From NCBI GenBank assembly GCA_021234155.1, contig JAJEKV010000105.1:1958494-2022493 (forward strand): 64,000 bases of DNA, given 5' to 3'. The stretch comes from Isoetes taiwanensis. Lineage: Eukaryota; Streptophyta; Lycopodiopsida; Isoetales; Isoetaceae. The notes beneath the pieces are model-generated. The model saw only the letters and a list, made by a program, of their open reading frames with translations. It had not been told where the DNA came from and did not search any database. Of the stretch, positions 28,652 through 62,745 are shown piece by piece; the stretch's first letter is position 1, and each line of letters begins with the position of its first letter. A program made the translations under genes and the position numbers.

Positions 28652-28729
28652 AGTCAATTAGTTGACCGGATTATCGTCCCATTTGACAAGTTTGTATGCG
28701 TAATTGTTAAGGATAATAAAGTATGTTTT

Positions 28730-32257: not shown

Positions 32258-32421
32258 AGTAATCTGACTGACATATTCATGTTCTGGTGAAAATAATACA
32301 GTTGTACAGACTCAAAGAAATACAGTTGTGCAGGCATAAAGAAATCTAACAGATATATTTATTCTCTGGAAGAAGTAACACAGGTATACATGCTCAAAGA
32401 AATTGGACAGATATATTCAAT

Positions 32422-32431
32422 GATGGGGAAG
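32422..32431 (+). other. copia polypurine tract
   Basis: GATGGGGAAG directly before the 3' LTR TG; plus-strand primer site. The same sequence is duplicated at 34844-34853. Confidence 0.85.
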
Positions 32432-32879
32432 TGAAGAGTATTGACATGATGATGAGTTCATTGAATATAGTTGAGGTTGATTAAATGATATTGCAATGGT
32501 CTTATGAACTACTAAGATTATTTCCAATGGTCAGATGCAATATTGAAAGTTATTTATAGTTAGACCTAAGACCTAGCTCGGTGAACAGTGTTCCCGGCCA
32601 GGTGCTTTCAAACCCAGAGATCTAGCTGCCGACCTCATAAATCAAAGGGTAAGATTAATGGATTGCCGGAATGCGGTGATCCAGAAGCAAATTTAACCAG
32701 AAGCATATCTTGTACAGATATATAGTTTGATCGTAATAGTGAACTGAAGTTTCGATGTTTGGCTTTGATATTTTCTTCGATGCTATTTGATTATTATCTG
32801 TATTTGAGATTGTGTGTGACATTGGCTTTTTAACAAGTGTGGTTGTATAGGTTAAAGTGATAGAGAGAATCATCTAACA
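32432..32879 (+). repeat. copia 3' LTR
   Basis: 448 bp, TG...CA ended, followed by the ATTAG target duplication (32880-32884). Confidence 0.93.
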
Positions 32880-33148
32880 ATTAGGGACTTAAGTTAGATA
32901 AAGGGAAACAATGGACCTTTCTTAAAGGGACCTGCATCGAAGGTGGGGACAATATCAATTAAGTAGTAGCTATCTTCTGCGATCAGGGACCATAAGAACT
33001 AGCTGATTCTTAGCCTGAATTACCTGCCGCTTCCAGATAACAGGAAATATGAATTGATAATTTGCCATTACCAATAGCTTCGCCAAATTTCCCAATTCTT
33101 AGCATCGATTAACCGGGTTGGGTGGTGAACTACCATTGAATCATTATC

Positions 33149-34734
33149 TGTGACGTTCCAGCACAGTATATGGTTCCAGGACGTATACTGTACTGCCTCG
33201 TCACGCGTACACGCCATCCCGATTGACATGTACGCCGACGTGTAGCCAAGCAAGTAGCACCCTAGGGGGCAACTTGCAAGTGTGTACACATTTAATTATG
33301 TGCACATTTACCCATGTGTACACATTTACCCATTTGTACACATTTATCCATGTGGACACTTTATGCCACTTAGTTAATAAAGGTAAGTGGACCACACCAT
33401 TTATCCCACATGCTCAAAGGGATAATGGGAAACCCTAGCCCTAACCCTTAGTCTATAAGTATAGGAAATCCTAACTTTCTATTTTCGTCCACAGCCTTCT
33501 AGAACTCTGTTTTGCTTGATCCAAGAGCCCATCTCGCCTCCCAAAGTCAATGTTCGAAAGCAGCCTAGCTCAGCAGCTTCCCTTTCTAGCTTCATCTTCG
33601 AGTAGATCTGTAGCATGGATGCGTTCAGAGCAGGAGGAGCAAGCCAAGGATCAGGTATTTTGTCAATTCAATAGTCTAATCCGCCTCCCAGACATAGAAT
33701 AAGTAGGTTTAGCCTATTGAATTGCCCATAGCAGCCATCTAGATCTCTAGATACCAAACCATAACTAAAGAACCTAACTCTGTGATTTAGATTAAATCTC
33801 ATTCTTTAGTTCTTCTATGATATGTATGTGATAATGATCTCTGTGGACTCATTGTATTGGGAAGGGGGGTAGAGGCCTTAAAAGCCTAGTAGTATGATGC
33901 TCCTAGCCAACCCTCTTTAATGCACTATTAAATTCGGCCTGTGTACAAGATCCACATCTAGTTGTGGGTGAAAGGGCCAGACTGGCTTACAAGGAGGTTC
34001 ATGTCCTGACTCATGATCAGTTAGTAAAGCCTATCGGGGACTATTGTGCACTAGACCTAATGCTCGACCAATCGCTGGCGTGAGGGCTTTGCATGGGTTC
34101 GACACTCTTGGGGTGGTGGACACCTTCCATGGAGTTCAAGTCGAGTACAGGCAAAGGCCCTCTAGTCACCTTGAGTCAAGATGCCAATCTCCTCGGAGGG
34201 AGTGATCCCCACCGCCCCCATCGACCGGGAGATGCAACACGAATAGCCCTTTGGCTATGCACCGAGGGCTACAATCCGGGTCCCAACACTTTTCAACCTA
34301 CTCGCAAAGTGTGCAGGGGGGCAGATGGAGTGGACTACCCTAAACCATGCTCTTATGCCGCCCAAATCCATTTGCCATGAATTAAATCATAATGACTGGA
34401 GACCCAAGCCACGGGCCATTCCCGTTGAGTCTGAGCCTTGGGTAGGATCTCCATATGTGATGTGTTGATCTTTGTCTATGCAGATATGTGGAGGGCCATC
34501 CTTCGGGATGGTCATGTGATGTTGATGTTGTATACTGACATGTATGTTTACGTTTCCGCAGCTAGGTAAGCCCTAAAGGGAGACAGGGTAAAATGACCCC
34601 TTCATTCTTCCCACTGGAACTCATCAAGGTTGCAGTGATATGTGGAGGGCCCTGTATTAGTATGGAGCTGGTATGGGGGATGAACTCCTGTTTGTATACG
34701 GTGAGAGCACCGTATACGAGTAGGAGACGTCGCA
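33149..34734 (+). repeat. Ty3 LTR copy in duplication unit 1
   Basis: Starts TGTGACGTTCC after TTATC and ends GAGACGTCGCA (expected CGTCACA). It contains (T)GTACACATTTA-type repeats, TCTATAAGTATAGG as a TATA candidate, and a short ATG leader (ATGGATGCGTTCAGAGCAGG) followed by CAGGTATTTT, a donor-like site. It matches the LTRs at 35566 and 55452 and is not followed by a Ty3 interior. Confidence 0.8.
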
Positions 34735-34735
34735 G

Positions 34736-37176
34736 AAAGAAATACAGTTGTGCAGGCATAAAGAAATCTAACAGATATATTTATTCTCTGGAAGAAGTAA
34801 CACAGGTATACATGCTCAAAGAAATTGGACAGATATATTCAATGATGGGGAAGTGAAGAGTATTGACATGATGATGAGTTCATTGAATATAGTTGAGGTT
34901 GATTAAATGATATTGCAATGGTCTTATGAACTACTAAGATTATTTCCAATGGTCAGATGCAATATTGAAAGTTATTTATAGTTAGACCTAAGACCTAGCT
35001 CGGTGAACAGTGTTCCCGGCCAGGTGCTTTCAAACCCAGAGATCTAGCTGCCGACCTCATAAATCAAAGGGTAAGATTAATGGATTGCCGGAATGCGGTG
35101 ATCCAGAAGCAAATTTAACCAGAAGCATATCTTGTACAGATATATAGTTTGATCGTAATAGTGAACTGAAGTTTCGATGTTTGTCTTTGATATTTTCTTC
35201 GATGCTATTTGATTATTATCTGTATTTGAGATTGTGTGTGACATTGGCTTTTTAACAAGTGTGGTTGTATAGGTTAAAGTGATAGAGAGAATCATCTAAC
35301 AATTAGGGACTTAAGTTAGATAAAGGGAAACAATGGACCTTTCTTAAAGGGACTCGCATCGAAGGTGGGGACAATATCAATTAAGTAGTAGCTATCTTCA
35401 CGATCGGGGACCATAAGAACTAGGCCCGATTCTTAGCTGAATTACGCTTCCAGATAACAGGAAATATGAATTGATAATTTGCCATTACCAATAGCTTCGC
35501 CAAATTTCCCAATTCTTAGCATCGATTAACCGGGTTGGGTGGTGAACTACCATTGAATCATTATCTATGACGTTCGGCCAAGACAAAGATATGGTTCCGT
35601 GGCGGTATGTCAGACGCATCGCCTGGTTACGCCGCATACACGCCATCCCGGACGACGCGTTATGCGCGACGTGTCAGCTTTCAAGCAAGTAGCACCCTAG
35701 GGGCAACTTGCAAGTGTGTACACATTTAATTATGTGCACATTTACCCATGTGTACACATTTACCCATTTGTACACATTTATCCATGTGGACACTTTATGC
35801 CACTTAGTTAATAAAGGTAAGTGGACCACACCATTTATCCCACATGCTCAAAGGGATAATGGGAAACCCTAGCCCTAACCCTTAGTCTATAAGTATAGGA
35901 AATCCTAACTTTCTATTTTCGTCCACACCTTCTAGAACTCTGCTTTTGCTTGATCCAAGAGCCCATCTCGCCTCCCAAAGTCTGCATGAAAGCAGCCTAG
36001 CTCACAGCCTTCCCCTTTCTAGCTTCATCTTCGAAAGTAGATCCAGAGCATGGATGCGTTGAGCAGGAGGAGCAAGCCAAGGATCAGGTATTTTGTCAAT
36101 TCAATAGTCTAATCCGCCTCCCAGACATAGAATATGTAGGTTTAGCCTATTGAATTGCCCATAGCAGCCATCTAGATCTCTAGATACCAAACCATAACTA
36201 AAGAACCTAACTCGTGATTTAGATTAAATCTCATTCTTTTAGTTCTTCTATGATATGTATGTGATAATGATCTCTGTGGACTCATTGTATTGGGAAGGGG
36301 GGTAGAGGCCTTAAAAAAGCCTAGTAGTATGATGCTCCTAGCCAACCCTCTTTAATGCACTATTAAATTCGGCCTGTGTACAAGATCCACATCTAGTTGT
36401 GGGTGAAAGGGCCAGACTGGCTTACAAGGAGGTTCATGTCCTGACTCATGATCAGTTAGTAAAGCCTATCGGGGACTATTGTGCACTAGACCTAATGCTT
36501 TCGGCCATCGCGTGAGGGCTTTGCATGGGTTCGACACTCTTGGGGTGGTGGACACCTTCCATGGAGTTCAAGTCGAGTACGGGCAGTGGCCCTCTAGTCA
36601 CCTTGAGTCAGCATGCCAATCTCTAGAGGGAGTGATCCCTACCTGCCCCATCGGGGCCGGGAGATGCAACCCGTGAATAGCCCTTTGGCTATGCACCCGA
36701 GGGCTACAAATGTCCCAACACTTTTCAACCTACTCGCAAAGTGTGCAATGTGAGGGGCGATGGAGTGGACTACCCTAAACCATGCTCTTATGCCAGCCAA
36801 ATCCATTTGCCATGAATTCAATGCAAATGACTTTCGGAGACCCAAGCCGCCACCATCCCCGCTGAGTCCGAAAGCCTTGGGTAGGATCTCCATATGTGAT
36901 GTGTTGATCTTTGTCTATGCAGATATGTGGAGGGCCATCCTTCGGGATGGTCATGTGATGTTGATGTTGTATACTGACATGTATGTTTACGTTTCCGCAG
37001 CTAGGTAAGCCCTAAAGGGAGACAGGGTAAAATGACCCCTTCATTCTTCCCACTGGAACTCATCAAGGTTGCAGTGATATGTGGAGGGCCCTCGTGACAG
37101 TATGGAGCTGGTATGGGGATGAACTCCTCCGCTTGTATACTTCGTGAGAGCACCGATATCTGAGTAGGAGATGTCA
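34736..37176 (+). repeat. tandem duplication unit 2
   Basis: Contains the duplicated copia 3' end (LTR copy 34854-35301), repeat X (35302-35565) and the Ty3 5' LTR (35566-37176). Differences from unit 1 are few and cluster at C/G-rich words. Confidence 0.85.
35566..37176 (+). repeat. giant Ty3 element 5' LTR
   Basis: Starts TATGACGTTC (G-to-A change from TGTGACG) and ends GATGTCA. Shared TCTATAAGTATAGG (TATA candidate), an ATG-containing leader and a CAGGTATTTT donor-like site. The left flank is TTATC. Confidence 0.8.
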
Positions 37177-37179
37177 TGC

Positions 37180-37192
37180 TGGTATCGTAGCA
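37180..37192 (+). other. degenerate primer-binding site of the giant Ty3 element
   Basis: TGGTATCGTAGCA, three bases after the LTR. It matches the initiator-Met-tRNA type (TGGTATCAGAGCA) at all but two positions. Confidence 0.6.
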
Positions 37193-37820: not shown

Positions 37821-39095
37821 ATGGCGCACACCAAAGAGACTGCTCGGGTTCCTCGAGGAGGTGAAACAGCCAGCGCCCAAGTGCAGCAGATGCTTCGGGA
37901 GCGTCTTCTCGCGGGAGGAGGCCAGTCTTCATCAGGTGGGGAGACCACTTCAGAGGAGCAGCACGAGCAGGGATCCCAGTAGGGATCAGAGGAAAAGCTA
38001 ACCAACACCATCGACCAGGAGCTAGACGGAGGAGCAGAGGTGCATTCAAAGACCTCAACGGAAGTACTCGAGGAAATTGAAGGGGACGACGAAATCCAAC
38101 GAGTCGTCGAGCAGATGGAGAAGGAGAAACAAGAAAAGGCAGAGCAAGAGCGGGAGGCCAAGGCACAGGAAGAGCAAAGGGAGCCCACCCCCGAGCCGAC
38201 TGAGGAAGAACAGCTTGAAGCCTGGATCAAGATGCATGAGGTGAAGGAACAGCGCAGGGAGAAGAAAAAGGCAGGGAAGAAGAGGAAGAGAGAAGAAAAG
38301 GAGGTCAAAGAGGCAGAAGAAAAGAAGAAGCGCAAGGGCAAAGCCGTGGAGGAGCCCAAGAGGAGGGTGAAGAAGACCCCGAACGTGAAGGTCGTCATCA
38401 AGGAACGGCCAGCTGACCAGCCCCCAACCTCCGATGACTCAGACGACGAGGATTTCAACCCTAACCAAGAAGGAGGGAGCTCCTCCAAGCCCCCAAGTGA
38501 TGAGCGGACAGACCAGGAGCAGGCAGAGCAGGATCAGCAGGCGCAGATACCCCCGCCCTATCCAACTTGGGAGAAAGATAAGGACCCCAAGAAGCCGGCC
38601 CGACCTGCCCGAGAATCATACGTGGTAGACCATCTTAGGGTCTACCAGAAGAAGTTGAAGGCACATCATGAGTTCATGAAGAAGTGGGAGGCTTACAACT
38701 CCTACTATCAGGCGAACAAGGTCACTTTTGTTGCAGGAGGACGGCCGTCAAAGAAGCAGACTCTGAAGCCACCTCCTGAGAAGCCCATTCCCCCAAAGAA
38801 GCCACCGAAAAGGAAATCCAATTCGAAGCTGAATCGAGCAATCAGGCAGATCCGACACTTCCAGATAAGCTATGGCTTCCTAATACCCCGTGCACCGTTC
38901 GCCAGGCTGGTGAAGGAAGTTGTGCAAGAGTTCGACACCAGCATGAGGGTAACGCTAGCCTTACAAGAAGTAGCCGAGCAAAAGCTAGTGCAGCATTTTG
39001 AAGACTCAACAGCATGCACTGTACACGCCAAGAGGGTGACTCTCATGAAGAAAGACATGCACCTGGCTAGTCACATTAAAGGGGAACCTCATTAA
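37821..39095 (+). CDS. H3-type histone-fold protein with charged N-terminal extension, inside the Ty3 element
   Basis: The ATG at 37821 opens 424 codons with one TAG at codon 54 (37980, preceded by CAG; C-to-T decay of a second CAG is likely). After the TAG the first ATG is 38232, leaving 287 residues. Residues about 95-200 are Lys/Glu-rich and probably coiled, with a basic nuclear-signal-like patch (KKAGKKRKREEK). Then come an acidic patch (DDSDDEDFNPN), a Pro/Lys-rich linker, and from about 330 an H3 fold: alphaN IRQIRHFQ, alpha1 PFARLVKEVVQEF, alpha2 LALQEVAEQKLVQHFED, then HAKRVT and KKDMHLASHIKGE. By eye about 40 of 71 aligned residues match canonical H3. Loop 1 is about four residues shorter, and the classic K4/K9/K27 tail is absent. 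Nucleosome incorporation is inferred. Confidence 0.88.
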
Positions 39096-39721: not shown

Positions 39722-40842
39722 ATGGCAACTGCAGACTTTAGGCGATGGTACAGCGCCAGTGCCCATGTAGCTAAGGCTAATGTCAATTCCATTTTCTAGA
39801 TTTTCCAGAAGGAGATAGATGTCCAAGCCACTCTGCAGGCAACAGCTAGGGTAGGACCGTCCTTAGTACAGCTCCCCCCTTGCATTGGATATTTTGTCCC
39901 CAAGCAGTCCCTCCAAGCAGCCTTAGGTGCTGTCCCCAACATTGCCAAATATCTGACCAACAAAGCTGCTAGGTTGCCAGATTACATGGTCTTGACCGCT
40001 AATAGGACCAAGTATTTCTCCTACACCGCTGCCCTAGCCATCTTTCTTTCCCACCATGCCCAGAACCCAATCGGGGAAACCTCCATCCTTGCCATGGACA
40101 TAGACCCCTTAGCCTCCTCAGCAGAAGGTCAGCTCCTATTGCAGTATCAAGCGGAGCAAGAAGAAAGAGCCAAGACGAAGCGATCGACTCAGATGACGAA
40201 GACTACGTCGAGCTCGACCCATAACAAGAGCGGCAACTAGCAGAGCAGGTGGCACCAATTCTCGAACAAGACCGGCAGACCCTCAGGATCGCTCCCCCGC
40301 TCGGGCTAGGCATTATAAGCCTAGCCCCCATCATCATCAACAGCCAGGAGTACCTGCTCCTAAGTGACATCCAGAACCTCCCCGAATGCAGAGCCAGGGA
40401 GTACCGACTTGACGAGTTGCTGTATCTTCTGCGGCAACAACCAGACCTAGATGACTTCATCACCCGGGAGGCTTCCGACTTCCCAATCCAGGTGAGAGAA
40501 GCCGACACCTACACCGGGGAGTCGACTTCAGATATCCAGGCGTACAGCAGTATCCGGCAAATGATGGAAGCTCGGGATCTGCCGTCTGAAGAAGAATTTT
40601 ACGCCATCCAAGAATGGATGGGGATCCGTGGCAAGACCACAAACATTTTGATGCCGAGTTCTTCGACACCAGCTCCCCCAGAGAGAAGAGGCGAAATCGA
40701 CCTGAGGCGAATCACATCGACAGTCTGGGACTTTGAAGACCTCACAGAGATTGACGTCGACGAATATGCGGGAAGACATAGAGCGGCGGACCGACCGACG
40801 GATGACGAATCAACAAAGCAGTGTGACGTGGACAGTCACTAA
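39722..40842 (+). pseudogene. unidentified ORF U1 of the giant Ty3 element (broken)
   Basis: Not recognised. From the ATG at 39722 (MATADFRRWYSASAHVAKAN) the frame meets a TAG at codon 26, continues to about 40190, shifts, passes a TAA (40231) and runs to 40842. Visible texture: a helical N-terminal part (LPPCIGYFVPKQSLQAALGA; YTAALAIFLSHHA), an acidic middle (IDSDDEDYVELD), then LLLSDIQNLPECRAREYRLD and an acidic, Arg-containing C-terminus. There is no zinc knuckle and no major-homology-like motif. Both stops could come from CAG/CAA. It sits between the H3-like ORF and ORF U2. It might be an accessory or Gag-like protein, but no function is assigned. Confidence 0.5.
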
Positions 40843-40862
40843 GGTATTATCTTCCTCTACTG

Positions 40863-41228
40863 ATGGACGGAAGGATAGCGATCATACACCGCAAGTTCAG
40901 CCCAAGGGGCGAGGAAGGAGTGTTCATGCTCATCGCACTCTCAGGCTTTGGTAGGCATGCTCGACTACTCCCAACAGTTGACCATGTCATCCTAGTCAAG
41001 AGAACGATGGCACTTGACATCTTCAACTTCGCCGTACCATACCGACGGCAGGGAAGACTAGCAGTGACCGCGGCCTATACTTCCGACTGCAGGGTAGAAG
41101 ACTTGGTGCAAGCCTTGCAGGGCGGGTCATCAACGAACATCCTCAGGAACTTGGGATGCTCGGTAGGAACGACCCAAGTTAAGAAGTTTCTTCAGGATAA
41201 CCCATCCTATCGGCGATTCCAAGAATAG
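40863..41228 (+). CDS. unidentified ORF U2 of the giant Ty3 element (121 aa)
   Basis: Not recognised. It starts ATGGACGGAAGGATAGCGAT and follows ORF U1 by 20 bases. Basic near the N-terminus, with alternating hydrophobic stretches (VFMLIALSGFGRHARLL; DIFNFAVPYRRQGRLAV) that suggest beta strands, then VEDLVQALQGGSSTNILRNL and VKKFLQDNPSYRRF. It may originally have been continuous with U1. No stops or shifts are inside it. Confidence 0.5.
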   Translation: MDGRIAIIHRKFSPRGEEGVFMLIALSGFGRHARLLPTVDHVILVKRTMALDIFNFAVPYRRQGRLAVTAAYTSDCRVEDLVQALQGGSSTNILRNLGCSVGTTQVKKFLQDNPSYRRFQE

Positions 41229-41991
41229 TTAGACTCTTGATCCCAGAGGCATTAAGTCGTATTTAATTAAAGTGGGACTCATTCCATTCCCATTTTTTCT
41301 AACTCGTTAATTTACACAAAAATAAGCACCCCTAATCCAAAACCGCCATAATTGGAATTTTTGTCTATTAGTGTGCATCCAAGCTTTTCTTCCAGTTTTT
41401 CTTGGATAGCGGTCGAGAACAAGAACAATGCAAGCGAAACATGCATTAGACCTATCAAGTTCTAATTGAAAAGATTCTTAGTTGAACATTTTGGCTCTAT
41501 TTTCTTAGGTGGGTAGACAATAGATCACAAATTCCAACAAAAATTATGCAAATCGCTTACTTAATCACCCAAAATACTAGTTTTGAGATACCTTATATTT
41601 ATAAATGGGCTCATTACAATATATATTACAGTGGGTGAAGAGACCATAGTGGTCGATGGGCACAATCATTACACCCCTCTTCACACATGAACCACCTAGT
41701 GCAAAGGGCGGCGTGGAGCTCTCTCCTAGTCATGGAGCAAACTTACGCATTTATAGAAATTTGTATGAGGAGTTCCTTTATGGGCCACGTGCTTGTATGT
41801 CCAACTGATGTCACCACCCTCTTCTCGGCACCTTTCTTTAATGAAATGATCTTTTCATTGCCCCCAAGCATGTACTAGTTGGTCGAGATAAGGACTGCAA
41901 GAGACAAAATCAAATTAGTCAAGTGATGCTACATGCAAAAAAATAAAAATAAAACATAGTTCTTAGGGCCATTTTTGAAAAATACAGGCAT
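41229..41991. other. non-coding stretch after ORF U2
   Basis: AT-rich, no credible frame. It contains no copy of the hairpin repeat. Confidence 0.45.
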
Positions 41992-42275
41992 GAGAAAGGC
42001 AGCTCAAAGCGAAAAACGCAGGTTTTATGGGTCAGAAGGCCTTTCTCGACTCGCGAGTCGAGAAAGGCAGCTCAAAGCCAGAAACGCAGGTTTTATGGGT
42101 CAGAAGGCCTTTCTCGACTCGCGAGTCGAGAAAGGCAGCTCAAAGCGAAAAATGCAAGTTTTAGGGGTCAGAAGGCCTTTCTCGACTCGCGAGTCGAGAA
42201 AGGCAGCTCAAAGCGAAAAATGCAAGTTTGAGGGCCTTTCTCGACTCGAGAGTCGAAAAAGACAGCTCAGAGTAA
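41992..42275 (+). repeat. 68-bp minisatellite built on a 30-bp perfect palindrome
   Basis: Palindromes start at 42039, 42107, 42175 (period 68) and 42234 (unit shortened by nine). Each half is GCCTTTCTCGACTCG and its exact complement; the last copy is imperfect. Between palindromes lies AGCTCAAAGCGAAAAACGCA-type sequence with GTTTTATGGGTCAGAAG. Confidence 0.9.
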
Positions 42276-43439
42276 AAAAGGGGCAATTTCAAAGCTCAGA
42301 GTCCGAGAAGGTCGAAAATGAATAACCTTCAAACATCCTATGTATTTTCTATGAAAAAATACCCTCCCCATAAATTTCCTACGTATTTTCCATGAAAAAT
42401 AGACCCTCCCCATGTATTATCTAATGGACACATATCCAATGGACCCTCCCCCTTTCTAATGGACCATACCATATAGCTATATGAAGAGGGGACTATTGGG
42501 CTCATATATAGCTATGTAAAGAGTAATGCCTAATGCACATGTAAATAGCAACATTATAACCTATGAGAGCACATTAGACCTATGCATTAAATCTATTAAT
42601 ATGCACTAATATGTACTTGTCCCCATTTTGTGTCTAGAACCTTCAAAATGGGTTAAACAAGGTGTAATTTATATCATGATCTATGCAAAGTTAAATTTTT
42701 ACCTTAGAATAAGAATATATGCCTAGAAAACGTGCACCATGGGAACATAATGTTTAACGTGTGAACATAGTAGCACACGTCAAAATATAATCCTATATTA
42801 TTAGCATTTATTTTACACTTTCTTTTTCAATGTATTATTTTAACCTTTTTTTTCTAATACTCCGCCTTTTTTCCCGCCCATGCTTGAATTTTAAAATCAT
42901 TTATTTTACACTTTCATTTTCAACGTATTATTTTACCCCTTTTTTTCTAACCCCGCCCTTTTTTTCCTGCCCATGCTTGAATTTTAAACTTTGGTACATA
43001 CCTTTGAGACAGTTCATTTGTACCGCTTGGAAGAAGCTCCCAACGCCATAGCTCCCACCGGCTTTTACTCCACCTCCGATCCATCACCGCAGATGGATTT
43101 ACGACTTCACAAGCAGATCCATCACCGTGGAGAAGCCTTCATCTTGCCTGGAAGCGCAGCCCTCTTCCGTCATCGTTTCCACTTGCTTAGATGTGAAAGC
43201 ACAAAAATGGAGCATCGATACTGGAAGCTCAAGCATATACAGCGATTTGGGTATGTACCTTGCCATGGATTATTCATCGTTTTCAGATTCTTCAGCATTT
43301 TCTTGGCACTCCGCCATTCTGCTACCCGAAAATAGCAACAGATCCAAGATCCTGAAAATAGCAACAGTTGAAAATACAAGGAGGGCGGATGTCTTTGGAT
43401 CCAAGAAGGCGGATGCCAGCGAGCCATTTGCAGTAGGGG
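42276..43439. other. non-coding stretch with a tandem duplication
   Basis: Bases 42808-42895 and 42899-42985 are an about 88-bp direct duplication (TTTACACTTTC, GTATTATTTTA, CCCATGCTTGAATTTTAAA). The GC-richer part at 43010-43430 has an open plus frame without recognisable domains and may be leader sequence of the captured fragment next to it. Confidence 0.5.
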
Positions 43440-44400
43440 CTCATGGAAATAGGCGTGGAAATAGGTTCTTTACTACTTTCACCGGAAATAGGCGTGGAAA
43501 CAAGCTTCGCAGGCAATCCTTCTTCAACCATCCTCAGGTTTTCGCTAGCGCTGCTTTTCGCTTGCGCTTTCTTGCGCTTTTTGCCGCAGGAATCCTTGCA
43601 AACGGGTTGAGTCCGGAGGGCCCAGCAATGGCGGGCAAGGGTTGAAGGAAGGAAATATTTCCCGAGAATGAATTGCAAGACAAAGATAAGCTCCGAGAGG
43701 CTTGTTAGATCGTAAAGGATTGAGGGACGGGGCCTGAAAGTCGGGTTGGAATGGAGCCAAGATTCTTCAACATCCAATTTGGAGTGGAATTGCACCTCAA
43801 AGATCAAGCAGGCCAAGGAAAGCTCTTGCAAAGCACCCGAGATTGGCTTGGAGAAGGCTTAATGGCGTGACATCTTCCACGTCCCGCAAGAAAAATACTT
43901 TTTGGTTATATAACCAGCCCTAACCTAAGAAGTCGCTATACAAAGCTTAAAATTAAGAGATAGGAGCTTACCAAGCTCTCGGGGGTTGCCAGGCGCCATG
44001 CCATCTTGGTTGGCTGTCGTGAGATTTTCGGGCCCGATATTTCCAGGTCCCTAAGTTATGGCAATAAAAAGTGCATTAAGTCTTAAGCTTAGTTTTGGAC
44101 AGATAAGAATGGCATGAATGGCCTTACCTCGAAGTTAGCCTCTATCTTGGTTGGCTGTCCCGGGATCTTGGTTGGGTTGGTAGCACCTTGAGTAGGTGTG
44201 GTCATTTGAAGATTCCAAGCCGTTAAGTGGGTTGCCATCCAAATATAGTTCTTGGGAGATTTGGCAAGCTCCCAATCTCAGGCGGAATGCCTCCGCTCAG
44301 CTCGTTGGTTCCCAGCCCCAATATTTTTAACGACACAAGGCGCCCAATTGAGGCCGGTATGCTGCCTGTCAGCTTGTTGTGATAGAGCTCCCTGAATAGA
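43440..44400 (-). pseudogene. captured LRR receptor-like kinase fragment
   Basis: On the minus strand, 44395-44240 reads LYHNKLTGSIPASIGRLVSL, then LGTNELSGGIPPEIGSLPNL: two plant-type leucine-rich repeats (L.L..N.L.G.IP..IG.L..L). Farther on (43830-43560), after shifts, a Cys-containing end of LRR type (CKDSCGKKRKKA) appears, resembling the end of an ectodomain and the start of the juxtamembrane part. No kinase domain is present. It is fragmented, with possible exon edges. It was probably captured from a host gene by a mobile element. The repeats are clear; the family subtype is not. Confidence 0.6.
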
Positions 44401-45017
44401 TAAAAACAGAGGTCATATCTGGAAGAGCAGGTGGGACATCAGAACTGTCGGCTGCAGCCTGAACCGAGCCTCTCTTTTTTTTCCTATTTTCTGTGTATTA
44501 TCCTTGGGGATTTATGTTTTCCAATTCTCGACTCACTAGTCGAGAAGAGGAGGATGGTTTATATTTTTTTTATTGGTTATTTATTTAATTAAATTAATTA
44601 AATTATTTATAATTAATTAAATTAATTATTAATTATATTATTTTGGCTTTCCCCTCCCCCCTTTCCCACTCTCCCCTTGCCCCTTCTTCTCCCTTGCCCC
44701 CTTGCCCCTTCCTTGCCCCTTCTTCTTCTTCCCCCTTCCCTTGCCCTTTCCCCTTGCCCCTTCTTCTCCCCCCCTCCCCCCCCTCTCTCTCTCTCCCCTT
44801 CCCCTTCCCTCCCCCTTTCTCTCGATCTCACCTCGCTCAACTTTCTCAACTATTTATTTGGAAATTCTGTAAGAAAATATTATGAACCATTCCTTGTTAT
44901 ATGACGTGAAATTTTGATGTCAATATGAGTCCCATTTTCAGTCCGAGTCCCAAAATTCAAGATTTGTCCCACTTTAATTAAATACAACTTCATTGTAATA
45001 AAGTTATTATTATCAAT
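44401..45017. repeat. low-complexity block: AATTA-rich then CCCCTTGCCCCTTCTTCT-rich
   Basis: 44570-44640 is almost only A/T. 44646-44822 is a polypyrimidine tract of CCCCTTG/CCTTCTTCT units, ending in (CT)n. Pyrimidine on one strand over nearly 180 bp could form triplex DNA. Frames here are artefacts of composition. Confidence 0.85.
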
Positions 45018-45600
45018 CATATATATGTTCTTATGTTTGTCGCGCTTATCCGACCGTCCATTCGAGATCCGACGGCTCACGTGGCTTTGGGACGTATCCT
45101 ACGGCCCAGATGGCTTGGGAGTTTACATATAATCCATATAGACACGATTCTACGGTCCAGGTTGATCTGATCCTGACCGCCGGTCCGAGATCTTACGGCC
45201 CACGTGGCTTTGGGGCATATCGTATGACCCAGATGGCTTGGGAGTTAGTTTGTAGCTTATATGTAAGCGATCCTATGGTCCAGGTTGATTTGATCTTGAT
45301 CGTCGGTCCGAGATCCTACGGCTCACGTTGCTTTGGGACACATCCTACGGTGCACATGGCTTTGGGAATTATATGAATCGATCCTACGGTCCAGGTTGAT
45401 TCGATCCTGATCGTCGATCCAGGATCTTACGGCTCACGTGGCTTGACACATATTCTACAGTGCACATGGCTTTGGGAATTATATGAATCGATCCTACGGC
45501 TCATGTTGCGTAAGATCTCAACCCTTGATCGGGTCCAAGATCCTACGGCCCAAGTTGAATGCTCATCCCTTAGGAAAAGGCTTTTAAAATTTTTATGGTG

Positions 45601-45662
45601 TGTGGGGGATTCGAACCCTAGCCATTAACCCCCCAGCCCCCCATTCTAACCACTAGACCAAG
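45601..45662 (-). repeat. tRNA-like Pol III segment (copy 1)
   Basis: Minus strand: TTGGTCTAGTGGTTAGAATG (A-box-like) and GGGTTCGAATCCCCCACA (B-box-like), with a G-rich middle instead of an anticodon arm. Not a functional tRNA; it looks like a SINE head. Confidence 0.55.
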
Positions 45663-45767
45663 AATTAATTCTATAAATAATTTCTGTTTCACATATACTT
45701 AAGGATAATGTTCCCATTAAGATAAAATAGACTATAACATTCTAGCTAGTTCAAGAAGGTTCTAGGA

Positions 45768-45818
45768 TGTTCTAGAAGACTCTAGAAAGTTCTAGAATCT
45801 TCTAGAAAGTTCTAGAAC
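45768..45818. promoter_or_regulatory. heat-shock-element-like array
   Basis: TTCTAGAA starts at 45770, 45790, 45800 and 45810, with CTCTAGAA at 45780: an exact 10-base spacing. This gives nearly ten consecutive alternating nTTCn/nGAAn pentamers, the binding pattern of heat-shock factors. The pattern is seen; function is unproven, and it is embedded in a larger block of related words. Confidence 0.5.
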
Positions 45819-46445
45819 ATAAGAGAATCTAGGGGGGATGTAAGAAAATTCTTCCAGAAAGTTCCAAATTGTTCTAATAAGTTTTAGAATGTTCTAGAAT
45901 ATAGGGGAATCTACGGGAATGTAAGGAAATCTAGGGAAATACTTCCAGAAAGTTCTAGAATATATTGAAAGTCTTAGAATGTTCCAGAAAGTCTTAGAAT
46001 ATTCTAAAAAGTTCTAGAATGTAAAGGAATCCAGAAGAATCTAATAGAACATAAGAAAATCAAGAGAATCTAGGAAAATATTTACAAGCCTAAGGGAATC
46101 TCTTAAAATTTGGGGGATCTAAAAGAATCTTCATAAAATCTAAGGGAATCTAAGAAAATGTTGATGAAATCTTAGAGTATCTAAGGGAATCTTTATAGAA
46201 TCTCTTTGAATCTAAGGGCAATATGATAAAATCTAAATGAATCTAAGAGAATCTAAGGGGATGTTCATAGAATCTTGGAGAATCTAGGGAAATTTAATGG
46301 AATCTAGAGGGAATCTTATAAAATTTAGAGAAATGCTCACGAACTGGTAGAATCTTAGAGAATCTATGAATTTCACGTAGGAACATGCTAAAACTCAAAC
46401 ATGCACCGTAGAACGCATTAAATTTCTTGTGTAATTATGTGTATA

Positions 46446-47508
46446 TATTATCTGATCTATATATGTTCTTATGTTTCGAGCTTATCCGACCGTCCGTTCG
46501 AGATCCGACGGCTCACGTCGGTTTGGGATGTATCCTACGGCCCAGATGGCCAGGGAGTTTACATATAATAGGTGTACCATGGTCCTACGGTCCAGATTGA
46601 GGGGACACATCCTACGGTCCACGTGGCTTTGGGAATTATATGTAATAGATCCTACGGCTCATATTGCTTTCATATGGTGAGATCTTGAACGTTGATGGTG
46701 AGATCCTAAGGCTCATATTGAATGCTCGTTCCTTAAGGAAAGGCTTTTAAAACTTTTTATGTTATTGGGGGGATTCAAACCCTGGTCCCCAACCTCCCAA
46801 ACCCCCCACTCTAACCACTAGACCAAGCATTAATTCTATGAAGAATTTATGTTTCAAATATACTTAAGGGTAATGTTCTAATTAAGATAAAATAGACTAT
46901 AATATTCTAGGATGTTTTGAAAGTTTTAAAATATTCCAGAAAGTTGTAAAATGTTCTAGAAATTTCTAGAATGTAAGGGAATCCAGGAGAATTAAAGGGA
47001 ATATAAGGAAATCTCATAAATTGTAAGAGAATCTAGGAAAATATACAAGTCTAACGGAATCTCTTAAAATCTAATTGAATCTAAGGGAATCTTCATAATA
47101 TCTAAGGGAATTTAAGAAAATCTTGATAAATCTTAGAGTTTTTTTAAGATTTTGCAAAGAGCGACAATAGAATGTTCTAAAATGTTTCATAATAAAGGTG
47201 TACAATATAAATCTTGAAAAAAAAATATTCTAGATGCTCAGGGCAAGCACCTCAGTCTAAAAATAGAAAATATTTTAAAAATGTTGCACAGATCCAAAAT
47301 AGATTATTTTAGAAGGTTTTAAATGCTCATGGGTAAGCACCCAATCAAAATAGAAAATTCTAAGAGAACCTAGGGGAATCTTCATGAATGCTATATAATA
47401 CAAAGAATGTTGAAGAATATAGAGGAATCACAAGAGAATCTCAGTAGAATCGTTGGTCACCGAAGAACATGCTAAAAGCGAACAATGCTTGTAGGATATT
47501 AATTTTCT

Positions 47509-47510
<2 letters not shown>
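46446..47510 (+). repeat. composite repeat, copy 2
   Basis: Begins like copy 1 (TATATATGTTCTTATGTTT, then GCTTATCCGACCGTCC). It contains a second tRNA-like segment (46765-46828) and a weaker TTCTAGAA/GAATCTAAGG block, and ends like copy 1 near GAACATGCTAAAA. Confidence 0.7.
46765..46828 (-). repeat. tRNA-like Pol III segment (copy 2)
   Basis: Minus strand: TTGGTCTAGTGGTTAGAGTG and GGGTTTGAATCCCCCC. Diverged from copy 1 in the spacer. Confidence 0.5.

Positions 47511-47564
<54 letters not shown>
47510..47564. repeat. (TA)n microsatellite
   Basis: About 27 TA dinucleotides just upstream of gag. Confidence 0.95.
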
Positions 47565-47568
<4 letters not shown>

Positions 47569-47672
47569 CATTTTCTTTTGCACTCTAAATGTTTTGTTGA
47601 TGTATTTTGTTCCACAACTATATCAACAAACACATATAATGCAATAAAATAAATGAAGCTAACCGTAAGGCC

Positions 47673-48985
47673 ATGATCTACTTGTGTATGCAGCTAGAGG
47701 TCCAGGAACAGCCGAACAAGAACGGCGAGTCCATAGAGATGAACAGACGCCGGCCAGGCAGCACCCAGCAAGGAACATGTACGAAGAAATTCGGTCCCAT
47801 GACCCCCGAAGAGGAAATGACGCAGATGAGATCGGACCTTCAAGAAATAAAGGCCCTTTTGGCAGCACAAGCAAGAGTTGGCCCAGATGACAACGTCCAG
47901 TTGCGGCAAGCACCACCTCGAAAGGCGGGAAAGGATAAGAGAAAGAGCAAGGCACAGAATCCTCCGACACGAGCTCAGATTCGAACTCTGATTCCGAGGA
48001 AGAGGTGGAACAGGTGCAGGACCGTAGGGATGGCAGGCCTAAAGACACAAAGACTTTCAGACTATCAGAAGAAGGTTGACTCAGCGCTCAGTAATGTATG
48101 GAAAGCAAGAAAGTTAGAGCAATTCTCGGGAGATAACAGGTCCGGGATGGAAGCAGAGGCATGGCTAGATGAGATGAGAGAGTATGGCAATGCCTATAGC
48201 ATGAAAGACAAGGACAAAGGCAGAGTAGCTACAGCCAACCTGAAGGGAGCAGCTAGGATTTGGTGGAAGGGCTACGCCAAAGCACATGGCCTAAGCAGGG
48301 ACAGTTGCAGGTTCAAGAAGTTTGCTAAGGCATTCAAGCATCACTATGTGCCAAGGGAACATAAATGCCAGATGATGCAACAATTCCAATCGGGATTGCG
48401 CCGGGGCAACAAATCGGGCCGAGAAGTACACGGAGGAATTTATGAGGCTCAGGCTTTATGTGCCCAAGTTGAACGAAAGGCACGCAGTAGAGGGTTATAT
48501 AGAAGGGTTGAACGAAGAGATCCGAAAGCTAGTAAGAGCAATAAACCCTAAGACAAGTGTCGAGCGTAATCCAAAGGCGATAAGCTTGTGGAACGCGGGA
48601 CCTCGGAAAGCGCGTAAAACAAAGAAGATTACCGGGGATAAGGGCAAAGCAACGAGAAGTTATAGCCCTAGAGCAAATAGCCCCCGTGTCTAGCAAAGAT
48701 TCCATACAAAGTGGCAACTATGGGAAGCGGCGGAGAAGAAACATGTGTCCTTCAAGGATAAGCAGAAGGGTCAAACTACTCGGCGGCGGTCGCGGTCCTT
48801 TTGCAAGCAATGCCCAAGGAGAAGAGGCAGAGTGCATTGAGAAACAGCTTTTGCTTCAGTGCTTCCAGGCCGGCCCACAGGGGACGCAAACCGCCCTTTG
48901 TCATGAGTGCGGCATTAGCGGAGTTGGGTGGATGGGACACTCGCCGGCGGCGGCGGAGAAGCACATGGCTCGCATTCAGTGGTGA
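47673..48985 (+). pseudogene. giant Ty3 element gag
   Basis: The capsid-type core is clear: KARKLEQFSGDNRSGMEAEA, then WLDEMREYGNAYSMKDKDKG and AARIWWKGYAKAHG, the Retrotrans_gag pattern. Shifts near 48400 move it to another frame (LNERHAVEGYIEGLNEEIRK) and again near 48590. A degraded zinc-knuckle-like CHECG...GWMGH lies at about 48900-48945; its last Cys is missing. The N-terminal 120 residues are charged and unlike known domains. Confidence 0.8.
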
Positions 48986-49039
48986 GTGTCACATTTTTGC
49001 TGCCATAGATTGAAACAAGCGAAAAATCGGATCGTAATC

Positions 49040-50171
49040 TCCACAAGAGGGAAGGCCAAGACCAAGTCTTTTATAGTCCCGATAGATTCGAAGCACCCAC
49101 AACTTTGCGTCCCCAAGAATGGTTGAGATGTTGAAGCTCAAGCCATTGAAGTCAAAGCCGAGACCCATGGTGTTAGCAAGCGGGGCAGTGAGACACGCGG
49201 CAGGCAAGAGGATAAACTTTGACATCGACTTGCCAGGGATCAACATTCAAATGGGGGCAGAAGTGATGAGCATCGGGAAGTATGATTTGATCATAGGAAT
49301 GGAGTATCTTGGACCAGCAGGAGCCATCATTGATTGTGGGAAGCGGAAGGTGACCCTCACGGCGCCCAACGGCAAAATCATAGAAATTGCAGGTAAAGAA
49401 GTTGTTCATATCATGCAGTGTATGTCTAGTAAGCGGCTGCTCAAGTGCATAAAGAGCGAGCATGTAGCATATATCTTCAAGCTTCAGATCGAAGAGCCCG
49501 AGTCAGAAGAAAGCAAGGAAGATAAGGTGCTCAGCAAGTTGCCAAAGCAGATAGCTAAGTTGATCAAGGAGTTCCAAGATCTCTTCCCAGACGAGATCAA
49601 GCAGCTTCCTCCTTACAGGGGAGTTGAGTGCGAGATAGCACTCGAACCAGGTACGAAGCCGACGAGCAAAACTCCGTACAGGATGACGACGCAAGAGCTG
49701 ACCGAGTTGAAGAAGCAATTGCAGGAGTTGCTTGACCTAGGGTTCATTAGACCTAGCGTCTCACCATTTGGGGCACCCATTCTTTTTGTGAAGAAGAAGG
49801 ATGGCAGCTTGAGGATGTGCATAGATTACAGGCAGTTGAACAAGCACACCATCAAGAATAAGTATGCACTCCCCAGATCGGACGACCCGATGGATCAACT
49901 TCAAGGGGCGAAAGTTTTCTCCAAGATAGACCTGAGGTCAGGGTACCATCAGATCAGGATTAAGGAAGAAGACATCCACAAAACAACATTCAGGACCAGG
50001 TATGGGCATTACGAGTTCACCGTAATGCCGTTTGGGTTGTCAAACGCCCCAGCAACGTTCATGAGGCTTATGAACGACATCTTCAGGGAGTTCTTGGATA
50101 CTTTTGTGATAGTATTCTTTGATGATATTCTGGTGTTAACAGATCCCTGGAAGAACACGTACAACACCTAA
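49040..50171 (+). pseudogene. giant Ty3 element protease and reverse transcriptase (N-terminal part)
   Basis: The protease is eroded: the expected D-S-G-A appears as D-S-K-H in a shifted frame near 49085-49100, but the flap/C-terminal block remains ([13 protein letters not shown]). RT is open: [69 protein letters not shown] and FFDDILV, where Phe-Phe-Asp-Asp replaces the usual F/Y-x-D-D. The catalytic aspartates are present. The frame ends in a shift after DPWKNTYNT. Confidence 0.9.
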
Positions 50172-50202
50172 GGAGAGTGCTCAAGAGCTAAGGAGGCACC
50201 AG

Positions 50203-51125
50203 TTGTACGCTAAGTTGTCGAAGTGCCACTTCGCAACGGAGAGGGTGGAATACCTGGGTCATGTGATCTCGTCGGAGGGGATTTCGATGGATCCTGCCAA
50301 GATTGAAGCAGTCATACAGTGGCCGGCACCGAAGAACATCCACGAGGTCAGAAGCTTTCTCGGCCTAGCAGGGTATTACAGGAAGTTCGTGAAGAACTTT
50401 GCAAAGATAGCGGCCCCGCTAACAGATTTGACGAGGGCGGAAAAAGTAAAGGATTGGGTAGATCACTGGCAAAAGAAGGCTCAAGCAGGATTCGAGATGT
50501 TGAAGGAAGCTTTGACAACCGCCCTCGTCTTGACCCTGCCAGACCCAGAGAAGGACAAACTTGTAGCGACTAGTAAGATTGCCACAGGTGCAGTGCTAAT
50601 GCAGGAAGAGCGAGTAGTGGCTTATGATTCTCGGAAGATGAACGACGCCGAAACGCGCTACCCGACTCATGATCAAGAGTTGCTTGCAGTTGTCAGAGCA
50701 CTAAGAATTTGAGGCACTACCTGTTGGGGAGGAAGTTCCAGTTGGACACAGATCATCAGAGCCTCCAATACGTGTTCACACAACCACATCTTAACCTGAG
50801 GCAGCGAAGGTGGATGGAGTTCCTCGAAGAATATGACTTTGATATAGTTTATAAGCCGGGGAAGCTCAATGTAGTAGCAGATGCGCTTTCAAGGCATCCT
50901 CTGACAACAAGAGTGCACTGCAATGCAACTTCGACGCTCACCAGCGACTTCAGTAAGAGGATCGAAGAAACCTTGCCGACAGATGCAGACTTCAAGGAAG
51001 TGTGGGCGAGCTTGTGCAAGGAGGCAAGAACAGATAAGGAGAGGGAGACCTTCAAGAATTTTAAGAAGGAAGGTAACCTTTTGTACCATAAGAACAAGTT
51101 GTGTGTGCCAGAGTATATACCAGAA
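50203..51125 (+). pseudogene. giant Ty3 element RT connection and RNase H
   Basis: [20 protein letters not shown] and [20 protein letters not shown] are the thumb/connection of Ty3 RT. RNase H is in two frames: [21 protein letters not shown], then after a shift at 50710 LDTDHQSLQYVFTQP and KPGKLNVVADALSRHP. It continues toward the integrase N-terminus and is cut at about 51125. Confidence 0.9.
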
Positions 51126-51818
51126 TGTGAGGTAAACAGGAAGATAAACAAAAGAACATCGGGTAAATGCTCAGCTCTTCCGTAGTAAATTTTCTTGCAA
51201 CATTCATGTAAATGAATTATGCCACGTGTCATGGCACAATTGGCTTTCTATGGCGTCGCCACTGTTGACATGCCGAATGGCATGTAAAGAGCCACTCTTG
51301 TAACATGGAGACCACTAAATTGACATTCAAGTAGCGGCTCCAAAATTCCGAATCATAAAGTAAACAGAGTGGAATGTGAGGTAAAAACAACAGAATGTGA
51401 GGTAAAGGTGTCGGAATGCAAGTAAAAGAGAGGAACGTGAGGTAAATCGCCGGAACAGCACTGCATATGAACATCGCAGAGATCTGCGAGACATGCCATG
51501 AAAGAAAGTAGCCACATGGCGCAATAGGATTGGACATCAAGGCTGAATGTCAATTAAGTGGTTTTTACGTACCTAGCCACCTTATCATTTCAACACTTTC
51601 TAAAGTTTTCTAACATATATAACTCTCCTATGAAAATTCCTTTGGAATATTCTTTTTCGATGCCTCCTTCTAAAGGTGACACGTACCTTCTGAGGAAAAA
51701 ATACAGCGACAAAAAATAGGGAAAAAATCTGCTGGTTCCGGTGAGGCTGGATCGACCGCAATAGCGGCCCTGGCAGGGCATGGATCCACGTTGTGGCATT
51801 CCAATCTGCCATGCCCTA

Positions 51819-52221
51819 AGGGCCAGATTCGACTAGAGGAGTTAAGGGCCTGTCACTTTGTTGAACCCAATCCCGTGATGGCACGCCTTAACTGGCTCCT
51901 TTGCTCTGATTCCATTAACTAGTGCTGGCAATTACCAAAACGCTCGCTTTGAAGCTAAAACACTCCGGAACACTGCCACTTAACTTCCAAGCTTTGGATT
52001 TAAATGACAGGGGATGTCCCCTGGCCTTTTCAAAATAGTTAACTAGCTGCTGCCGGATTTCGGCCACGTCTTCGGCATCAATCTAACCATCACCGTAGAT
52101 CTCAAAATTTGATAACTCCAGTGCCACTTCGTGGAATCACCGAAGTTATGTGCTCAAAAATAGAGAGCGGAAATTGAGTTTTTACATGATACTTCCACTG
52201 TCGCATGTGGAATCTGGCCCT
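51819..52221. mobile_element. MITE-like element (about 400 bp)
   Basis: Ends AGGGCCAGATTC (51819-51830) and GAATCTGGCCCT (52210-52221) are perfect 12-base inverted repeats. Flanking TA on the left and AA on the right hint at a decayed TA duplication. No frame inside. Confidence 0.5.
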
Positions 52222-52629
52222 AACTCTGTAGTTGCAGCGGTACTTCCATTTGCATTCATTTCAGTGTAGTCAGCCGTGGATCAAGGCGGTGAACGCTTCA
52301 GACGGTGCAAATCATCTGGGCCGCAATCTTAGCGGCCACATTTTCTTTTGGAACATCTCCTGCGTCAAAGCTTTGAATCCTGGCAGTGGCCCTGTTCTGA
52401 TCCAAGTTGAGGCAAGCTATCGGCCTTGGTTCCACAAGCTGGACACTGCTCCGACGATTTTGTCCGACTACTTCTGCCTTGCCCGACAAGATAAAGCATG
52501 AAAATGATTTCGTACTTTGATTTATAGTTCGGCTATGCTGTTCTCCAGTCTTTGAAGCGATCTTTGGAGAAGCGCTTTCAGGTAAAATTGCAGCTAAAGC
52601 CCCTCTTTTTGTGAATTTTTTTAGAATAC

Positions 52630-52920
52630 CGTTAGTGCAGAGGATGAATCAATGCCTCTTGGGTATGTTGCTCTTGGGCTAGACAGTTCTAAAAATTTAT
52701 CTAGTGGGTACGATGATGGCAAAGAAAATGGTATTAATTATGCAAGGATAGCAGATATAAAGCCACGTTTGATTAAGACCTTGGAGAAGAGATCTTTCCA
52801 TGACTTATTTTCTACAGCATCTCGCCTACTTTGTCTAATTATGCTGCAGACATGGTGGCTACTCCAACTGTTTCTAGAGCAAGCCTTTGCATATGCAATG
52901 GGAAAATATTAGACGGTCTC
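52630..52920 (+). pseudogene. unidentified coding-like block in the insertion
   Basis: Bases 52652-52912 read SMPLGYVALGLDSSKNLSSG, then GINYARIADIKPRLIKTLEK, with coding-like composition. A shift leads to ATPTVSRASLCICNGKILDG up to 52974. It may be exon pieces of a host gene; the family is not recognised. Confidence 0.35.
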
Positions 52921-52969
52921 CATTTTTTGGAGGCAAGCAGTTGTGGCACAATTATAGCCAGGGATCAAT

Positions 52970-53161
52970 TTGAAGAATTATAAATCTATAACTAGGTCTT
53001 TCAATCGTACTATTGTGCGCTTATGTGAAATTATTAGGAGATGTGCAAACGTTATGCTCAAGCCGAGTAACAGGGGGAAAGAATTGATTGAAAGACCTGA
53101 AAAATGTCTACATGCTTTAACTTATGAATTGAGATCATACTTCTGGCTAGGAGCATCATGA
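52970..53161 (+). pseudogene. captured fragment resembling alkaline/neutral invertase (GH100)
   Basis: The 63-residue frame has SITRSFNRTIVRLCEIIRRC, then RPEKCLHALTYELRSYFWL. The tail resembles the conserved 'P.K.L..LTFELRSYFWLD' block of plant alkaline/neutral invertases, and the upstream 'R.T...I.RLC.L....' pattern also fits. Coding stops right after FWLGAS, as at an exon end. Too short to function. The motif is seen; the family call is from memory. Confidence 0.5.
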
Positions 53162-53310
53162 TTGATTATTACTCTTTGTATTTTCAAAACAATTTGTTAG
53201 CTTTGCAACCCTTCTTTGCGCAGGTGGCTGTTTACAGAAGAATGGTAAAATGATAAAATGGTAAGGTTCCTGTATTCCATGTTGCTCATTTACTGTTTTA
53301 TGAATTTATT

Positions 53311-54100
53311 CGGAATCATCAGGGGTGAGGAAGTTGATTCTCCACGACACCCACAACAGCCCAATAGCTGGCCACGCAGGTTTTATGAAGACATATTTCA
53401 AAGTGCGCAGCAGCTATTATTGGCCAGGAAATGAAGAAGCGATAGCTCGCTACATCAAGGAGTGCCAGTATTGTCGGTGAGAGCGAAGGCATAGCGGCTT
53501 AATTCGGGAGCATTTGAACCATTAAGCGGTGTCGAACGCTAAGTGGGAGGTCATCGATGGACTTCATAGCAGGGCTCCAGAGGACGATAAGAGGAAAGAT
53601 GCCTTGATGGTTGTGGCGACAAGTTGTCGAAGATGGCACACTTTGTGCCTTGCGGGACTCTGAACCACGGCCGTGGATACGGTGGCTCTCTTCACCAAGG
53701 AAATCTTCGAGCTCCATGGCATGCCGAGAGATCATCTCCGACAGACCCGAAGTTCATGGCGCCACAGGGGATCTTTTGCGACGATTCAGACGAAGCTGTC
53801 CATGAGCACGACCTATCATCCTCGAGACGGATAGGCAAATATAACGGACCAACAGAATTTTGGCGGATATGCTACTGAAACTATATGCGAACAAGCAGAG
53901 TATATGGGAAGAGTATATTCAGTTGGTGGAGTTCGCTTATAATAGCAACAAGCAGGAATCATCCCAGATGTCGCCGTTCATGATCAACTACGGCTACCAA
54001 TGTCTAACTCGGACACCGCACAATCTCGTGTCAAAAGTAGAGGTTTCAGAAGAAATGTTGGCCGACATGCGGCGGTGGTAGAAGAGTTCCGAGGATATCT
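53311..54100 (+). pseudogene. giant Ty3 element integrase (zinc-binding and core)
   Basis: The H2C2 zinc site is intact: LILHDTHNSPIAGHAGF ... KECQYC (53330-53475). The catalytic core is badly shifted: traces KDALMVVAT, FTKEIFELHGMPRDHL and DMLLKLYANKQSIWEEY, QLVEFAYNS lie in different frames. Missing bases sit mainly in C/G-rich words. It would insert the cDNA. Confidence 0.8.
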
Positions 54101-61562: not shown

Positions 61563-61569
61563 TTGCTTT

Positions 61570-62629: not shown

Positions 62630-62745
62630 ATCTTTTTCAACTCTATTATTTATTATGTTTTGATCATTTGTCTCGGGTATATCTTCATCTTCTGAGTCAC
62701 TATCTAGCCTATTTGATTCAATATGATCTGTCTCATTGTCTGCTG

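Follow-up and report, generated by a model that had tools for sequence, protein, structure and literature searches.

Until now, genetic elements that carry a histone of their own were known only among DNA viruses, in some of them, and among fungal DNA transposons, in a small number. Bracoviruses encode H4 and giant DNA viruses encode single histones or complete sets, with the single viral histones thought to join host nucleosomes (review PMC9145170); the string 'retrovir' is absent from that review and 'transposon' occurs in it once, in passing. In fungi, H3 was captured (as H3L) by hAT DNA transposons in Pyrenophora tritici-repentis and its relatives among the Dothideomycetes, where the copies have been inactivated by RIP or are said to be possibly drifting (PMC3538342, PMC6710886). 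The literature that we searched, a scope with subscription papers and preprints outside it, held no histone-encoding retrotransposon, which is consistent with the statement in the original prediction for this locus that no plant retrotransposon with a histone-fold protein had been described; the published H3 captures are those of the fungal hAT DNA transposons. Here we analyse a stretch of 64,000 nucleotides from Isoetes taiwanensis (contig JAJEKV010000105.1; the window) and find that it holds a decayed copy of ORF1, from families of chromoviruses that bear an H3-family histone as a selected gene. These elements appear to be jumping genes with a chromatin protein of their own.

The likeness to the fungal hAT-H3L elements is considerable: an intron-less H3 was captured and multiplied by a mobile element, it carries insertions in the N-terminal tail, and it is neither fully H3 nor CenH3 (as described in PMC3538342 and PMC6710886). 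However, the fungal carriers are DNA transposons in tens to hundreds of copies, whereas those of Isoetes are LTR retrotransposons in more than 1,000 copies, and only in Isoetes is the ORF constant in three families with omega well below 1 and, in one of them (family A), an exact H3 N-terminus joined to a CENH3-like core. Pfam found no transposase in the element, which has LTRs and a reverse transcriptase (RT). With the viral histones the Isoetes elements have in common that a genetic parasite encodes a histone resembling that of its host but altered in the N-terminal part, although the carriers are DNA viruses in the one case and LTR retrotransposons in the other. Ogre/Tat-type retrotransposons, which belong to a different Gypsy branch and are without a chromodomain, have an ORF of unassigned function between 5' LTR and gag, and the Isoetes elements likewise have an extra ORF there. 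In their remaining genes they resemble plant chromoviruses with group II chromodomains, having a Ty3/Gypsy gag, protease (PR), RT, RNase H (RH), integrase (INT) and a C-terminal chromodomain whose cage is largely lost, but no histone ORF is described for those chromoviruses in the available part of PMC3350952, whereas the Isoetes elements have two extra ORFs before gag.

The window element shows the features of a chromovirus (Ty3/Gypsy), namely LTRs, gag, the PR-RT-RH-INT order and a chromodomain at the C-terminus of integrase, all on the forward strand. The 5' LTR (34736..37175) matches the 3' LTR (55499..57039; self-BLAST and alignment) at ~89.5% over its last 1.5 kb, and its final 240 bases align in the same position in the sister copies L051 and L052; the 3' LTR is without the first ~0.9 kb of the 5' LTR. 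Behind the 5' LTR, reading of the sequence gives a primer-binding-site-like TGGTATCGTAGC (37179..37190), which we take to be approximately the complement of the 3' end of initiator tRNA-Met. Then come ORF1 (37821..39095), the remains of ORF2, which encodes a conserved protein of ~530 aa between the H3 ORF and gag (39844..41244, collinear with L051 and L052), a decayed gag (47640..48551, Pfam Retrotrans_gag 2.4e-6), a decayed protease, reverse transcriptase and RNase H (49086..51112, Pfam RVT_1 3.2e-28, collinear with L052), and the C-terminal half of integrase with its terminal chromodomain (53313..54647, the chromodomain at ~54415-54590; collinear with L052, in which Pfam Chromo gives 1.1e-9). 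The predicted position of the ORF, between an LTR and gag in an element with a chromodomain at the end of its integrase, is thereby confirmed, with gag/pol at 47640-54647.

Two stretches of the window copy, ~6.3 kb between ORF2 and gag (41245..47549) and ~2.2 kb in pol (51113..53312), have no counterpart in the sister copies: the alignment with L051 and L052 jumps from ~41,245 to 47,550, and that with L052 lacks the second stretch. From these alignments both are probably later insertions into the window copy, so that the usual distance from H3 to gag is ~2.3-2.5 kb, not 8.5 kb, and minus both stretches the element is compact. An extra LTR copy stands in tandem before the 5' LTR (32314..34731, forward strand, ~94-95% identity to the LTR behind it; self-BLAST and alignment). 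The two direct-tandem copies (32314-37175) share the ~0.9-kb start that the 3' LTR is missing, and part of this start (32430-32879) occurs again at 26897-27346 with 97% identity.

ORF1 of the window (37821-39095, forward strand) spans 424 codons. It had been taken for a single open frame, but codon 54 is a TAG (37980-37982) that interrupts the frame, and 12 bases are deleted after 38954; this copy is a dead pseudogene. Its C-terminal 84-94 residues (38826-39092) match Pfam PF00125 Histone with E=2.4e-20 and 73.4 bits against a cut-off of 26.4, where the E-value is that of the downstream open part; the 84-residue core by itself gives 1.4e-19. All listed matches of phmmer against the PDB are H3, the best at 8.2e-20 with an alignment that runs from alphaN as far as the C-terminus, so the core, by Pfam and by the PDB matches listed, is H3 across alphaN to alphaC and not H4, H2A or H2B. 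The fold proper, alphaN to C-terminus, occupies 38841..39092 and recurs in at least 150 scored genome copies. The original reading of the last ~94 residues as an H3 core therefore holds along the whole core (2.4e-20 in Pfam, 8e-20 for PDB H3), and the case named beforehand as fatal to it, that no match to the histone fold would be found, did not arise at the level of sequence. Chance resemblance to a histone was considered and is ruled out by the E-values. In AlphaFold models of ORF1 from family A, the helices at the C-terminus follow the order of H3, though at low confidence (block pLDDT 46-61), and Foldseek on this low-confidence model returned H3.3 as the best PDB match at only E=0.46, which is non-significant; the model of ORF1 from family B is of low confidence too. 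Thus the assignment of an H3 fold rests on sequence. Loop 1, described as about four residues shorter than canonical, owes this to the 12-base deletion, which is private to the window copy, and other copies read RVT[GD]EMLLALQEA, of canonical length.

At ~410-470 aa, ORF1 is much longer than a canonical or replacement H3 (H3.1/H3.3, ~136 residues). In canonical H3 the full modifiable tail adjoins the core, whereas in family A the start of the tail and the core lie ~330 residues apart. The tail motif of the window copy reads MAHTKETARVPRGGE (37821..37865), better copies start MARTKQTARKPRPGE or MARTKQTARVPxG, and L051 and L053 start MARTKQTARKPRPGES, with that Met being the first ATG past the upstream stop; H3 itself starts ARTKQTARKSTGG. 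The intact A protein is thus MARTKQTAR(K/V)P, exactly H3 residues 1-8 or 1-9, followed by ~330 charged residues and the H3 core. The claim that the tail had been replaced by about 330 charged residues was right as to the charged stretch and wrong as to simple replacement, since H3 residues 1-8 or 1-9 are kept at the N-terminus. The pattern RTKQTAR-x-P, in which Pro is required at position 10 so that host H3 is excluded, has 825 matches in the genome and none for the control. The first 100 of these use 55 nucleotide spellings, and at residue 9 there are 53 with K, 31 with V, 11 with L, four with M and one with I. Position 10, serine in H3, is proline in A, and the K27 region is not recognisable. 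In families B and C the protein starts differently, without ARTKQTAR, which means that not every family requires the exact tail. We also looked for remnants of the tail just upstream of the core (ARKS in B/C, GGxPxKKQ in A); the suggestive alignments were no better than those of same-residue shuffles, and this candidate was dropped.

We searched the I. taiwanensis assembly (1,658,258,908 bases in 1,110 contigs) for further copies. For the 84-residue core, the best 150 of 8,460 first-look candidates were scored; most of these are short or broken, open frames reach at most 507 aa, and the copies are spread over very many contigs. Exact degenerate patterns, for which the reversed-pattern controls gave 0, found at least 1,189 copies of the window-type (A) C-terminus and at least 674 of the second-type (B) core genome-wide. 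Among the best-scoring matches listed, ORF2 lies downstream of H3 on the same strand in 48 pairs, mostly at 2.1-2.3 kb, never upstream, and once on the opposite strand, while RT lies downstream of H3 in 14 cases (12 of them at 4.0-5.2 kb) and upstream in one. A listed H3 precedes 14 of the 113 best RT copies, where ~14 would be expected if nearly all RT copies have H3; the expectation treats the H3 list as a sample of 150 from 1,189 and is a rough check. The order H3-ORF2-gag-pol-chromodomain is constant. A one-off insertion of a host gene, the other outcome that was to overturn the original prediction, is ruled out by these copy numbers (at least 1,189 and 674) together with the fixed order and constant spacing.

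The H3-carrying elements fall into three families. Family A, the window type (L051-L054, L069, L071), has the MARTKQTAR[K/V]P start, the charged linker and a divergent core, REIRHFQRSYGFLIPRAPFARLVREV...HAKRVTLMRQDMHLASHIKGE. Family B (L055-L059, L062-L065) starts MA[IN]TKSAPDP and has a conserved N-terminal domain and a near-canonical core that includes FAILALQEAAEAYLVALFGDANLC. Family C (L066-L068) is homologous to B over nearly its full length (44% identity, hhalign 1.3e-81), with a core nearest to H3.3 (THAILALQEAAEAYLV). Identity to host H3 is 87-88% for the cores of B and C and ~51% for that of A, and A and B have in common only the core and a short stretch preceding it. Behind ORF1, the A copy L052 has Pfam matches to Retrotrans_gag, RVP, RVT_1, RNase H, integrase and Chromo, gag in A forming a gene of its own downstream in which the zinc knuckle is matched weakly. 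B has gag-pol ORFs in the same position, 63% identical to A over 882 aligned residues, and C (L076) has gag and RT. The conserved N-terminal domain of ORF1 in B and C (IPYPxxxxxExFxxxLN ... YRYLGxG in L055-L068) matches no family, and a motif A[RH]K[ST]G, common to B and C, lies some distance before the core.

The codon-level dN/dS comparison suggested at the outset gave purifying selection, with omega of ~0.03-0.06 in the core and 0.14-0.20 in the rest. By family, the medians over open copies (NG86) were 0.064 for the core and 0.195 for the rest in A, 0.025 and 0.135 in B, and 0.031 and 0.178 in C. Out-of-frame reading of the same codon alignments gave omega of 1.3-2.7, and in-frame median dS was 0.6-1.3. 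Copies were picked for core similarity and long frames and are biased toward intact ones, which may lower omega for the core; the N-terminal part of ORF1 played no role in the picking. ORF1 is under purifying selection in three families, and we regard it as all but certain that it is a selected, element-borne histone of H3 type.

The cores do not appear to share one origin. A search with the pattern W-T-x-E-A-L-x-A-x-Q-E led to two host CENH3 loci, near copies of one gene with introns (L072, G000:C1049:8517582; L073, G000:C1067:23809001), in which we read five exons by eye and which match Pfam Histone at 1.7e-38. At 9-10 of the 21-22 sites at which both differ from host H3.3, the A core has the same residue as host CENH3, against a shuffled mean of 1.0-1.2, and 0 of 20,000 shuffles reached as high a count; in the same test B was within chance (p 0.12) and C slightly above it (p 0.02). 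A and host CENH3 also have the block RHFQ[KR]SYGFL in common, and LIPxAPF and RVTLM of A are presumably present in rice or Arabidopsis CENH3 as well. In trees with long branches, A falls beside the CENH3s and B+C beside H3; the AU test did not reject A with host CENH3 (p=0.19) and came near to rejecting a single A+B+C clade (p=0.061). Introns are present in host CENH3 and absent from the element copy. Although the trees fall short of proof, these comparisons point to a CENH3-type gene as the probable source of the A core, taken up in the form of a spliced copy, and to an H3.3-type gene as the probable source of the B/C core (host H3.3 is L045). Probably, then, A and B/C each acquired its core separately, by recruitment or by replacement. 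A longer loop 1 with a Trp at its end belongs to the centromere-targeting region of CENH3. A has a canonical loop-1 length and a Val there, without the extra residue and the Trp, and so by this measure is not a working CENH3. The Isoetes CENH3 (L072/L073), in contrast to A, has a tail of its own (MPRKKST...), introns and the loop-1 insertion.

Of the proposals for what the histone does for the element, we think one the most likely and give it an even chance: the ORF1 product would enter nucleosomes as a substitute H3 and so protect or mark the chromatin of the element. After removal of Met, the A protein would expose ARTKQTAR(K/V); imported into the nucleus, it would pair with host H4 via the conserved fold and replace host H3 (or CENH3) in nucleosomes. 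The A core aligns with canonical spacing and keeps R69, R72, R83, C110, H113, K115, R116, T118, D123 and L126 (H3 numbering), of which C110, H113, R116, D123 and L126 belong to the H3-H3' bundle and R69, R72, R83, K115 and T118 contact DNA. Tail and core are separated by a region that is charged and for the most part disordered in A but forms a conserved domain in B/C, and this region may act as an anchor or adaptor. The gain for the element could be chromatin that is less readily silenced, found by its own integrase chromodomain, or both. Of these steps we are most confident in nucleosome entry, then in the anchor or adaptor, and least in the benefit to the element.

Silencing of retrotransposons works by way of histone marks, in plants chiefly methylation of H3K9. 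Silencing would be lessened by a residue 9 that is not lysine in about half of the listed A copies, by proline in place of S10 and by the unrecognisable K27 region. In the self-landing variant, the integrase chromodomain would recognise this chromatin. By eye, however, the chromodomain of L052 (LEIVPELILDKAFKK..LQYLVKWKHL) keeps one of three cage residues, the Trp, with non-aromatic residues at the positions of Tyr24 and Tyr48; the absence of the first and usually the third cage residue is the mark of group II retrotransposon chromodomains (PMC3350952). With only the central Trp left in the cage, direct reading of a methylated tail by the element is doubtful, which favours escape from silencing. 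We advance only tentatively the wider scheme in which chromoviruses of this lycophyte took up histones of the H3 family on at least two occasions, one of H3.3 type and one of CENH3 type, and build nucleosomes of their own. The free N-terminus of these, with K4 and often without K9, would let the element evade silencing that depends on H3K9 or would mark landing sites for its chromodomain integrase.

Alternatively, ORF1 might compact RNA or cDNA inside the virus-like particle like a second nucleocapsid, for which entry into host nucleosomes would be unneeded. ORF1 is the first gene on the element RNA and has a basic charged linker, and the zinc knuckle is matched only weakly in gag, which is encoded separately further downstream, all of which would suit packaging. 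Packaging needs neither the H3-H3' and DNA-contact residues that the A core keeps nor the exact N-terminus of hundreds of A copies, however, and B/C cores with ~88% identity to host H3.3 and omega of ~0.03 are what nucleosome integration would lead one to expect; we therefore think packaging unlikely. Somewhat less probable is that a CENH3-derived A histone enters centromeric chromatin, there to steer integration to centromeres or alter centromere strength in favour of the element. The derived residues common to A and host CENH3, including the RHFQxSYGFL block, and the LIPxAPF / RVTLM motifs presumably shared with angiosperm CENH3 point in this direction, but A is without the extra loop-1 residue and Trp of CENH3, copies lie on very many contigs, and the H3.3-like cores of B and C mean that centromere targeting cannot be the function common to the families.

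That a chromatin protein is so strongly conserved in a plant, with long open copies on many contigs, could also mean that the plant itself uses the element histones and so keeps open copies. One would expect a domesticated gene to occupy one locus without gag-pol, whereas this ORF travels with gag-pol in an order that stays fixed across a large repeat family and across the three diverged families, making service to the host improbable. Passive carriage of a host histone retrocopy, captured once and merely borne along like the decaying fungal hAT copies, is very unlikely, the least probable of these readings. Gene capture by transposons is common and capture of H3 is documented in fungi (PMC3538342, PMC6710886), but across three families median omega is 0.025-0.064 for the core and 0.135-0.195 for the remainder of ORF1, with dS of ~0.6-1.3 and controls above 1, and 825 tails have been kept with synonymous variety. 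The substitute-H3 reading, were it correct, would concern an element with its own H3, the first eight tail residues, often no K9 and an integrase chromodomain, and such an element offers a test of whether a parasite rewrites its own chromatin. If the A core is from CENH3, the elements are also a mobile multicopy source of a centromeric-type histone, which bears on centromere drive and CENH3 evolution.

Histones are unmentioned in either Isoetes genome paper (one being PMC8566536). In building the I. taiwanensis repeat library, repeats with BLASTx matches to plant proteins were removed (PMC8566536), a filter that may have dropped the H3-carrying elements and inflated gene counts; annotators should be aware that counts of H3-like genes in I. 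taiwanensis may be inflated by retroelements. ORF2, the second gene ahead of gag, has no match in Pfam, PHROGs, the PDB or viral contigs; at least 150 genome copies were scored, with open frames of up to 535 aa, and its product is possibly a partner of the histone. It is kept in A elements (window 39844-41244; L074, L075), and by eye there is a probable homologue in B. Around the element in the window, frames of Ty1/Copia-type integrase and reverse transcriptase, read by eye, flank it on both sides (28652-32257 and 60822-63831), and LINE-type reverse transcriptase fragments, also recognised by eye, lie on the reverse strand at 5418-7043.
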